Source: Fluviicola sp. (GTDB taxonomy: Bacteria > Bacteroidota > Bacteroidia > Flavobacteriales_D > Crocinitomicaceae). From it: a DNA stretch of 47,514 nucleotides. Positions 25,636-27,660 of the stretch are shown in pieces (within the stretch, counting starts at the first letter, position 1; each line of letters begins with the position of its first letter). Both the position numbers and the translations under genes were made by a program. The notes under the pieces are model-generated. The model was not told the DNA's origin. It saw only the letters and a program-made list of their open reading frames with translations, and ran no database searches. Where the stretch lies: NCBI GenBank assembly GCA_002734085.1, contig NVXV01000003.1, forward strand, positions 217,512 through 265,025, written 5' to 3'.

Positions 25636-26661
25636 CTATTTACTGAAGAAATAGTAAATATGTGTTTCCCATTTACTTGTGTCTGGTTCATTCCCTGGAT
25701 CAGAAATGTATTCTTCTAAAGCAGGACCTTCTAATGAAAGGTCATTCTCTTTCACATAGGATTCAATTGCGTTATGGGGTTCGGCCAAATCATCATAACT
25801 TCCCATATGAACAATTTTTAGTGCTTTCCCACCTAATTCAAATGTTTCGAACTCATTAAAATCTTTAGACAAACCTTTCACAGGCATAACAGCAGCCATA
25901 TCAGCTTGTCCTTTTTCTGGCTCCCATACAAAGTAAATTCCAGAAGGACGACCATCAAGTTCCATCGAGTTTTCAGCCACAAATGAATTAATAGCTCCAT
26001 AATTGTCTGAATAAAACGATTGCATATTTTCAAATTGAACAACATCTCTTTTCCCAATGAATTTTCTAGTCGGTACTTCAACCGTTTGAATATTTGAAGG
26101 AGATTCTTCAACTACTGGTTTCTCAGCTAATTCTTCGACTGAATTTTTGAGTTTATCAAGTCCTTTTTCAAAGTCTTCACCAACCGTTTCTTCCATACTA
26201 AAAAACAATGACATTATATTCCAAGGATAAGCCATTTCTCCTTCCATGTACCAGGTTACTTCTGTTTTTCCATTTACATCTTTAAACGCATAATATGTAG
26301 GACTTTCTGATTCGAAAGGTTCTTTAAAAATCAAATGGATCTTCACTGTATCTTCTGAAACATCAGTTATTGTCATTGTTCCTTTTCCGACATCTTCATT
26401 TCCTTCCCATTCATATTTGCTTCCAACAGAGCCAGCTGCTCCTGTTATTTCAATTTCCATATCCTCATCCATTTCAGCCCAAGGGCTCCAATCCTGGAAA
26501 TTTTCAAAGTTTGCCATATAGGCTTTGACTTTATCTTTTCCTGCGTCAACAACAATAGTTCTTTTCAAATTGTAGTCAGTATCCAAGAATAAAGGAATAA
26601 TAAAGAATAGCCCAATTAGAAGGATAATTAGTATAACGAAGGTTTTAAGTACTTTTTTCAT
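25636..26661 (-). CDS. Membrane-anchored SRPBCC plus GyrI-like domain protein
   Basis: 341 residues. An N-terminal hydrophobic anchor (about 7-27, FVILIILLIGLFFIIPLFL) is followed by an SRPBCC/polyketide-cyclase-like domain (about 30-180, RTIVVDAGKDKVKAYMANFENFQDWSPWAE). From about residue 200 there is a GyrI/AraC-effector-like ligand-binding domain (VEVPTRKFIGKRDVVQ... ending ETHIYYFFSK). Both folds bind small hydrophobic ligands; the ligand is unknown. Such two-domain proteins are common and uncharacterised in Bacteroidota. A -7-like TACATTCG lies at 26689-26682 on the minus strand, divergent from the phenylalanine hydroxylase leader. Confidence 0.82.
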   Translation of the reverse strand: MKKVLKTFVILIILLIGLFFIIPLFLDTDYNLKRTIVVDAGKDKVKAYMANFENFQDWSPWAEMDEDMEIEITGAAGSVGSKYEWEGNEDVGKGTMTITDVSEDTVKIHLIFKEPFESESPTYYAFKDVNGKTEVTWYMEGEMAYPWNIMSLFFSMEETVGEDFEKGLDKLKNSVEELAEKPVVEESPSNIQTVEVPTRKFIGKRDVVQFENMQSFYSDNYGAINSFVAENSMELDGRPSGIYFVWEPEKGQADMAAVMPVKGLSKDFNEFETFELGGKALKIVHMGSYDDLAEPHNAIESYVKENDLSLEGPALEEYISDPGNEPDTSKWETHIYYFFSK

Positions 26662-26735
26662 AATCTTTAGTTTTAACGTAACGAATGTATAAAAAAATTA
26701 ACAACATTGTTATATTTTTTATGAAATATAGTTTT

Positions 26736-26743
26736 ACCTTTGT
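26736..26743 (+). promoter_or_regulatory. -7 promoter element driving the phenylalanine hydroxylase leader
   Basis: TACCTTTG matches TAnnTTTG exactly. A TTG at 26708-26710 is too far (25 nt) to be a normal -33 element. Transcription should begin a few bases past 26743, so the leader peptide ATG (26753) would be very near the 5' end. Confidence 0.6.
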
Positions 26744-26752
26744 TCAATCTAA

Positions 26753-26812
26753 TGAAGAAGAATTATACATACTGGTATTTTAACTGTGTACACGGAACCA
26801 GTATGTTATAAC
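26753..26812 (+). CDS. Aromatic-rich leader peptide of a putative attenuator
   Basis: A 19-codon frame starts at ATG 26753 and stops at TAA 26810-26812. It encodes MKKNYTYWYFNC followed by VHGTSML. Residues 5-10 are Tyr-Thr-Tyr-Trp-Tyr-Phe, so five of six consecutive codons are aromatic. It lies between a consensus -7 element and a terminator just before a gene for aromatic amino acid hydroxylation. Ribosome stalling at these codons would cover stem region 1 (26768-26777). It is too short for statistical gene finding; the call rests on composition, position and the three overlapping stems. Confidence 0.75.
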
Positions 26813-26867
26813 TATAAATAATTATTTTTATTAACGAGCCTGGTTCTATTTGAATCGGGCTTTTTTT
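26768..26867 (+). promoter_or_regulatory. Transcription attenuator (three competing stems) upstream of phenylalanine hydroxylase
   Basis: Region 1 (26768-26777, ACATACTGGT) pairs with region 2 (26798-26807, ACCAGTATGT), 10 bp. Region 2 also pairs through GAACCAG (26796-26802) with region 3 CTGGTTC (26840-26846), 7 bp plus a G-U. Region 3 (26837-26846) pairs with region 4 (26852-26861) to form the terminator. Stalling on the aromatic codons blocks region 1 and favours 2:3 (antitermination). A ribosome at the stop codon covers region 2 and favours 3:4 (termination). Expression should rise when aromatic amino acids, probably tyrosine, are scarce. Confidence 0.75.
26837..26867 (+). terminator. 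Attenuator terminator hairpin
   Basis: AGCCTGGTTC (26837-26846) pairs with GAATCGGGCT (26852-26861): 10 bp including two G-U pairs, a 5-nt loop, then seven T (26861-26867). It ends 10 nt before the hydroxylase ATG, too close to be a terminator of an upstream gene. Confidence 0.85.
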
Positions 26868-26877
26868 ATTTTATATT

Positions 26878-27660
26878 ATGAAAACATACGAGATTATTGA
26901 AGGGCTAGAACAACAGTACGACAAATACTCTACTGAAGATCAAAAGGTGTGGGAAATACTTTTTGAAAGACAATTTGAACAATTACAAGAACTAGCAGAT
27001 TTATCATATCTTGAAGGGATTAAGCGCGTTGGATTCTCAAAAAATAAAATTCCTAATTTCAAAGAAGTGAATGCTCGTTTGCGAAAACAAACAGGCTGGA
27101 ACATCCATGTAGTACCAGGAATAATTGATCAGACAAATTTCTTCAAAATGTTATCTGAAAAAACATTCCCCTCTTCAACATGGTTGAGAAAAATGGATGA
27201 ACTTGATTATTTGTCTGAACCCGATATGTTTCACGATGCCTTTGGTCACATGCCATTACTCACTAATTCTATTTTCTGCAATTTTTTCCAAAAAATAGGA
27301 GACTTAGGTGTCAAATACATAGACCATCCTGAAATAATTGAAAAATTAGGTAGAATTTACTGGTTTACTGTGGAGTTTGGACTTATAGAAAATGGAAATG
27401 GTTTAAAAATTTACGGTGCTGGGATTCTATCTTCTTTTGGCGAGTCAAAATATAGTTTAAGCAATGAGCCTGAAAGAAAACCTTTTGATATTGTCGAAGT
27501 CATGAATACAGATTTTGACAATACGGTTATTCAAGAATTGTATTTTGTGATTGAGTCTTTTGAGCAGTTATCTCATTCAATTGAAGAAGCTGAAGCAGAA
27601 ATCAGTTCCTTTTTAGTAAAACAAAGAATGGAGTGTAATGTCAAGAACATAACAAAATAG
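26878..27660 (+). CDS. phhA: Phenylalanine 4-hydroxylase, monomeric bacterial type
   Basis: 260 residues; converts phenylalanine to tyrosine with O2, Fe(II) and a pterin. The iron ligands are visible: His119 and His124 in MFHDAFGHMPLL and Glu166 in YWFTVEFGLIE, with spacing like characterised bacterial enzymes (HxxxxH then about 42 residues to Glu). FPSSTWLRKMDELDYLSEPD precedes the first His as expected. There is no regulatory ACT domain and no signal peptide. It lies directly behind an attenuator whose leader peptide is rich in Tyr, Trp and Phe, which argues for a tyrosine-supplying role over phenylalanine breakdown. ygiQ follows 37 nt downstream with its own -7 element. Confidence 0.95.
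   Translation: MKTYEIIEGLEQQYDKYSTEDQKVWEILFERQFEQLQELADLSYLEGIKRVGFSKNKIPNFKEVNARLRKQTGWNIHVVPGIIDQTNFFKMLSEKTFPSSTWLRKMDELDYLSEPDMFHDAFGHMPLLTNSIFCNFFQKIGDLGVKYIDHPEIIEKLGRIYWFTVEFGLIENGNGLKIYGAGILSSFGESKYSLSNEPERKPFDIVEVMNTDFDNTVIQELYFVIESFEQLSHSIEEAEAEISSFLVKQRMECNVKNITK

Follow-up and report, generated by a model that had tools for sequence, protein, structure and literature searches.

Tyrosine-codon leaders with overlapping stems predict ribosome-mediated attenuation of phenylalanine hydroxylase genes in Bacteroidota

The window, by which we mean the whole stretch of 47,514 nt analysed here, comes from a genome of 4.03 Mb that is 99.89% complete. It carries a gene for a short phenylalanine 4-hydroxylase (PAH), whose product exceeds the cut-offs of NCBIfam NF008877 (289.3 bits; cut-off 247) and TIGR01267 (phenylalanine 4-monooxygenase, monomeric; 274.1 bits, cut-off 264.75) and also matches Pfam PF00351 (Biopterin_H). 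The gene upstream (25636-26661) lies on the opposite strand and is divergent, so a terminator between the two would have no upstream gene to serve and would concern only PAH and whatever lies downstream. The region in front of PAH holds a promoter element, a short open reading frame and four mutually complementary strands (Table 1).

Table 1. Positions of the PAH gene and of the features preceding it in the window
Feature	Coordinates	Strand	Basis or remarks
-7 promoter element TACCTTTG (TAnnTTTG)	26735..26742	+	sequence
Leader peptide ORF MKKNYTYWYFNCVHGTSML	26752..26811	+	sequence; Tyr-rich leader likewise placed in many relatives
Strand 1	26767..26776	+	overlaps Tyr/Trp codons; partner 26797-26806
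Strand 2	26794..26806	+	final leader codons; partner strand 1 or strand 3
Strand 3	26836..26847	+	26840-26847 with strand 2 (antiterminator); 26836-26846 with strand 4 (terminator)
Strand 4 (26852-26862) and T run (26861-26867)	26852..26867	+	predicted intrinsic terminator
PAH, 260 aa, monomeric bacterial type	26878..27660	+	NCBIfam and Pfam models

Direct reading of the letters bears out most of what the initial annotation had claimed for this region. A -7 box is present, and the leader has its ATG at 26752, 19 sense codons with Tyr-Thr-Tyr-Trp-Tyr-Phe as codons 5-10, and a TAA that ends at 26811; the run of seven T ends 10 nt before the ATG of PAH. Two of the three overlapping stems have the lengths that had been given: strands 1 and 2 share a perfect core of 10 bp, which can be extended, and strands 2 and 3 form seven Watson-Crick pairs plus one G-U (8 bp; 26794-26801 with 26840-26847). 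The 3:4 stem has 11 pairs, including three G-U, rather than the 10 claimed. The computed duplex or fold energies are -15.2 kcal/mol for 1:2, -12.3 for 2:3 and -15.8 for the terminator, and the fold of 26736-26880 beats dinucleotide shuffles (z -4.84; 0/200 as good). Judging from the -7 element, the transcript is predicted to start near 26747.

The layout suggests how translation of the leader could govern transcription of PAH, with Tyr 5, 7 and 9 as the putative regulatory codons. Given the general size of a ribosome footprint, a ribosome whose A site lies at the Tyr codons (26764-26778) would presumably end near 26788 and leave strand 2 free, and one halted at the stop codon (26809) would presumably reach about 26821 and cover it; the positions in the window fit this rule. 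When Tyr-tRNA is ample, the leading ribosome would reach the leader stop and cover strand 2, the 3:4 terminator would form, and RNA polymerase would stop before PAH. When Tyr-tRNA is scarce, the ribosome would stall at the Tyr codons and cover strand 1 only, leaving strand 2 to pair with strand 3, so that no terminator would form and PAH would be transcribed. Were the leader not translated at all, 1:2 would form and termination would ensue. We consider it highly probable that the region is such a ribosome-mediated transcription attenuator, which would sense charged tyrosyl-tRNA and control a tyrosine-supplying PAH. A structured 5' region followed by a terminator could also belong to an untranslated leader that binds a tRNA or a metabolite, that is, a T-box or a riboswitch. 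No Rfam family matches the window at its gathering score, and a permissive threshold returned only sub-threshold matches far below their cut-offs, the sole amino-acid leader among them being Thr_leader (18.1 versus 55 bits). Moreover, Tyr codons and complementary strands recur among relatives and a fixed sequence does not, and we give this alternative next to no credence.

The enterobacterial pheA/pheL, trp/trpL and his attenuators combine end-product codons in a leader with overlapping stems and an intrinsic terminator, and in them a ribosome at the stop codon covers strand 2. The putative PAH attenuator resembles them in each of these respects, and the kind of mechanism that we predict is classical; unlike them, it uses Tyr codons, would control PAH and occurs in Bacteroidota. 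The trpL and pheL leaders are treated in PMC11802643, which also describes aroR-aroF of Corynebacterium glutamicum, where a Phe-Tyr-Phe leader answers phenylalanine limitation and tyrosine is without effect. The PAH leaders share with aroR aromatic codons placed before an aromatic biosynthesis gene; unlike aroR, whose Tyr codon does not make it tyrosine-responsive, they have Tyr as the enriched residue. Closer in phylogeny, structured 5' elements with clues to leader-peptide attenuation precede amino-acid operons in Flavobacterium psychrophilum, those before pheA and hisG being given as conserved (PMC9723704). These elements share the phylum and the suspected mechanism with the one described here, whereas the sections of that paper that concern them make no mention of PAH or tyrosine. 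In the literature searched, the coverage of which was incomplete, we found neither a tyrosine-responsive leader nor any leader of this kind on PAH. The PAH leaders would add tyrosine to the set of amino acids for which sensing by ribosome-mediated attenuation is apparent, beyond the well-studied bacteria.

Tyr leaders recur in front of PAH genes well beyond the window. The upstream regions of 16 loci (L002-L017) were read by eye, the best 80 of at least 594 relatives' loci were taken from public genomes, and the best 30 loci were added from 200 searched genomes of the family, 52 of which have a PAH match. Removing 18 near-duplicates from 127 upstream regions left 109 distinct ones, drawn from these best-scoring loci, and 47 of the 109 contain a Tyr leader, defined as a short ORF with at least three Tyr in five codons. 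The reverse strand gave none, and 40 rounds of shuffling gave a mean of 2.2 and a maximum of 6. A terminator scoring at least 15 follows the leader in 43 of the 47 (0 in 20 shuffle rounds), with 21-39 nt between leader stop and terminator. Of the remaining four, L008 has a terminator that overlaps the search boundary; L033, L066 and L072 have none and were left out as probable products of chance, their number being close to the 2.2 expected, which leaves 44 leaders. Within the family set, 28 of 30 loci have a Tyr leader (L128 and L148 do not; those of L120, L123 and L144 are weaker or fall outside the definition, L123 being L002 in another cut), and 29 of 30 have a terminator. In another 28 of the 109 regions, both a qualifying leader and an informative neighbour are lacking; inspection by eye shows weaker Tyr leaders in four of these, L002, L009, L015 and L144. 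Mapped onto a tree of 115 PAHs, the Tyr-leader label (49 rows, of which four are weaker leaders) requires 6 changes, compared with a mean of 17.6 for shuffled labels. One PAH on this tree, L089, sits on a contig titled as an Actinomyces viscosus MAG and groups with Crocinitomicaceae-family rows, nearest to L139; the title probably reflects a binning error.

The leader of the window has Trp and Phe codons beside its Tyr codons, and Trp codons also occur in the leaders of L002, L003 and L004. This would suit a general aromatic attenuator that senses starvation for phenylalanine, tyrosine and tryptophan together as a global cue. Across the 44 leaders (966 residues), Tyr makes up 18%, compared with 3.6% for Phe and 0.8% for Trp, and unbroken runs of three to seven Tyr are common. 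Neither Phe nor Trp is enriched in short ORFs of the 109 upstream regions; of the 19 amino acids besides Tyr, His (4 versus 0.9, z 2.0) and Gln (4 versus 1.2, z 1.9) depart most from expectation. In addition, stalling upon phenylalanine shortage would turn on an enzyme that consumes phenylalanine. A general aromatic cue is therefore unlikely. The aromatic signal proposed in the initial annotation holds for Tyr, which persists across relatives, and the Trp and Phe codons are a local variant of the window.

Because the leaders are too variable for a covariance model, alternative pairing was assessed by shuffles and a swap permutation. In the 43 loci with leader and scored terminator, the 2:3 antiterminator is more stable than in segment shuffles (mean z -2.3, Stouffer z -15.1; 25/43 individually at p <0.05 and 7 at 0.005), and so is 1:2 pairing taken jointly (Stouffer -11.5; 22/43 below -1.64). 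Swapping partners among loci weakens 2:3 from -12.0 to -9.2, a mean loss of 2.9 kcal/mol, and none of 10,000 permutations was as good as the true assignment (z -8.1). A strand 3 arm ranks its own strand 2 first among the 43 in one case only and in the top tenth in 14 (median rank 7), since a CCGGTTC-like core is common to many arms. Strand 3 varies widely and is matched by its partners in both strands 2 and 4: within predicted pairs, to which this tally is confined and for which the swap test serves as control, all four letters occur at 8/9 stem positions of 3:4 and at 5/9 of 2:3. The distance from the start of strand 2 to the end of the stop codon is 8-24 nt in 33/43 loci and 27-43 nt in 7/43; in three, strand 2 starts later. 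The simple scheme fails to explain L034, L064, L069 and L132, where a ribosome on the stop codon would hardly cover strand 2, and in L003, L034, L057, L081 and L086 the 2:3 pairing shows little or no advantage over shuffles.

Chance could produce any single one of these loci, and a terminator preceded by a fortuitous short ORF would cause constitutive partial termination free of ribosome control. The enrichment of Tyr, the narrow spacing and the matched 2:3 variation across relatives make this explanation extremely improbable. Relatives keep Tyr codons and alternative stems along with the terminator, not the terminator alone, which supports the classical ribosome-mediated attenuation proposed at the outset.

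Bacterial PAH is usually seen as a catabolic enzyme that carries out the first step of phenylalanine breakdown. On that reading, the enzyme of the window would serve degradation and the attenuator would merely curb wasteful expression. Its own genome encodes 4-hydroxyphenylpyruvate dioxygenase (HPPD), as do most of its relatives (above cut-off in 57/59 genomes, own included), and an HmgA homologue adjoins the HPPD gene. An earlier view that HmgA was absent, based on a negative PF04209 search, was dropped once the Dyadobacter HmgA reference protein, used as query, found the homologue; that protein is itself matched by a Pfam model other than PF04209. The HPPD-HmgA pair lies on contig C25, unlinked from PAH on C30. 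Neighbourhoods were scored by tblastn with proteins taken from the loci themselves. None of the 12 PAHs that have an HmgA or HPPD homologue on their own strand and no more than 5 kb away has a Tyr leader, compared with 21 of 65 other distinct public-genome loci (Fisher p 0.03). Owing to relatedness among the genomes, with one Spirosomataceae/Cytophagaceae clade accounting for six of the 12, this evidence is no more than moderate. Restricting the comparison to loci with both flanks reaching 3 kb gives 0/12 versus 17/52 (p 0.03). A stronger contrast obtained earlier (0/12 versus 44/97, p 0.0015) was discarded because it included loci with 1.5 kb flanks, of which there are 31 and whose neighbours can be judged in part only. 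A Tyr leader with terminator was not found elsewhere in the 12 HmgA/HPPD-linked loci either. Finally, induction by tyrosine shortage has the wrong sign for tyrosine breakdown, and we regard a catabolic role as very unlikely, although PAH could also supply the tyrosine breakdown route for which this genome has genes.

The operons in which leader-bearing PAHs reside favour tyrosine supply. In Fulvivirga (L042), DAHP synthase is followed by a Tyr7 leader and then by PAH, an aminotransferase and prephenate dehydrogenase (tyrA). In L063, a Tyr5 leader 2.2 kb upstream heads the order aminotransferase-tyrA-PAH, tyrA being assigned by similarity. Eight Cyclobacteriaceae-type loci (L032, L035, L036, L037, L048, L050, L058 and L066) have hisH and hisA homologues after PAH, identified by family model in L032 and by similarity in the other seven, and their leaders contain His with Tyr or Phe codons, for example MSPTPRTYVHHSYCFLE; a scored terminator follows in seven of the eight, L048 excepted. 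Leader codons and operon genes thus correspond, and the arrangement is a possible two-amino-acid attenuator. In most of the eight loci the PAH-hisH-hisA operon follows trp genes and DAHP synthase. Within 330 nt, a Tyr or His/Tyr leader is absent from 12 his-linked loci, 4 linked to trp or DAHP synthase genes, and one linked to tyrA, the last being L063, with its leader further upstream.

The initial annotation had proposed that the enzyme is made as a biosynthetic step. Besides the neighbourhood contrast and the Fulvivirga operon, this is supported by the gene content of the window's genome, in which chorismate synthase and pterin dehydratase are present and neither prephenate dehydrogenase (PDH_N) nor prephenate dehydratase (PDT) was detected by searches that were positive in all 14 control genomes, although an unfamiliar route to phenylalanine or tyrosine could escape such a gene survey. 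A genome unable to make phenylalanine and tyrosine from chorismate would convert imported phenylalanine to tyrosine, as animals do; the simplest physiology we infer is thus a bacterium that imports phenylalanine and makes tyrosine on demand. That PAH makes tyrosine in Bacteroidota is already known: mutant fitness assigns it to tyrosine biosynthesis in Echinicola vietnamensis, a member of this phylum, and in Dyella japonica, and the same role has been proposed in Legionella pneumophila (PMC7311316). Leader regulation is not mentioned in the relevant part of that work. A Tyr-codon leader would hint, from sequence alone, at which PAH copies make tyrosine.

Across the 59 genomes, PDH_N matches in 8, of which 5 pass the cut-off, and is strong in G012, G033 and G056 only. 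Weak matches were set aside; the one inspected, in G048 (L111), looks to us on plain reading like a pyrroline-5-carboxylate reductase-like protein. Prephenate dehydratase is detected in 8/59 genomes only, a count that suggests widespread phenylalanine auxotrophy in the order. The distribution of PAH is patchy, with a match of any kind in 23/59 genomes, own included, and within the genus in only 2/10, namely the window's own genome and G008. A distant, longer aromatic hydroxylase (open frame of 555-655 aa) replaces the short PAH at L018-L022 (genomes G015, G038, G039, G050 and G041). In G017, which has a prephenate dehydratase match, the PAH frame is interrupted (L017), yet the Tyr leader and terminator are kept.

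A counterpart occurs outside Bacteroidota. Sphingomonas parva (L099; -277..-111 relative to the PAH match) and another sphingomonad (L152; -305..-113) have a Tyr-run leader followed by a GC-rich terminator, and their PAHs nest among alphaproteobacterial PAHs in the tree. Such a leader with terminator is absent from the other 28 of 30 loci examined in this family, in which 62/79 genomes have a PAH match. The sphingomonad leaders look like convergent structures of independent origin.

Many of the Tyr leaders have a promoter element close to their start codon. In 28 of the 44, a strict TAnnTTTG box precedes an in-frame start by 3-10 nt, compared with 3.7 expected; taking the smallest value where several starts fit, gaps of 4 nt (10 leaders) and 5 nt (5 leaders) are the most frequent. 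Mapped transcripts place this element at -12 to -5 relative to the transcript start (PMC9723704, PMC6847099), so a gap of 4 nt places the A of the ATG at +1, and many leaders are predicted to be translated leaderless or nearly so. This sets PAH copies, which often have the -7 box directly before the ATG and thus little or no predicted 5' UTR, apart from enterobacterial leaders. Such transcripts are a minority among Bacteroidota: 5' UTRs shorter than 10 nt make up about 3.7% in B. thetaiotaomicron (PMC7366714), 5.5% of F. psychrophilum transcripts are leaderless (PMC9723704), and in F. johnsoniae 13% of 5' UTRs are at most 10 nt and 87% longer (PMC6847099). Bacteroidota messages lack a Shine-Dalgarno sequence and are seldom leaderless; the PAH leaders make it testable how leader translation starts there fast enough to control the polymerase. 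Seven of the His/Tyr leaders carry a variant box, TAnnTTAG, 4 nt before the ATG (TAAATTCG in L048).

We also scanned the window and 72 loci on both strands in an amino-acid-blind manner, for TAHHTT[TA]G, a gap of 3-7 nt, an ATG, a short ORF and a terminator. Of the 18 matches, 16 lie directly before PAH and one precedes the tyrA-PAH operon of L063; the window itself gives none because its gap of 9 nt, which would give a 5 nt UTR, exceeds the range. A broader reading would make Bacteroidota amino-acid attenuators a leaderless class, with transcripts starting on the AUG or only a few nucleotides away and ribosomes loading on the nascent 5' end without Shine-Dalgarno or upstream contacts; tyrosine attenuation of PAH would then have arisen early or repeatedly and would mark biosynthetic PAHs, with an independent counterpart in sphingomonads. 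We put this forward tentatively, the chances of its being right falling slightly short of even. The one further match of the scan belongs to L064 (Hymenobacter sediminis): about 1.3 kb ahead of PAH, from 3711, lies a second candidate leader, MLNLTAKYFNLMNIRPVQGEVGPLCGHRR, with its own -7 box and terminator.
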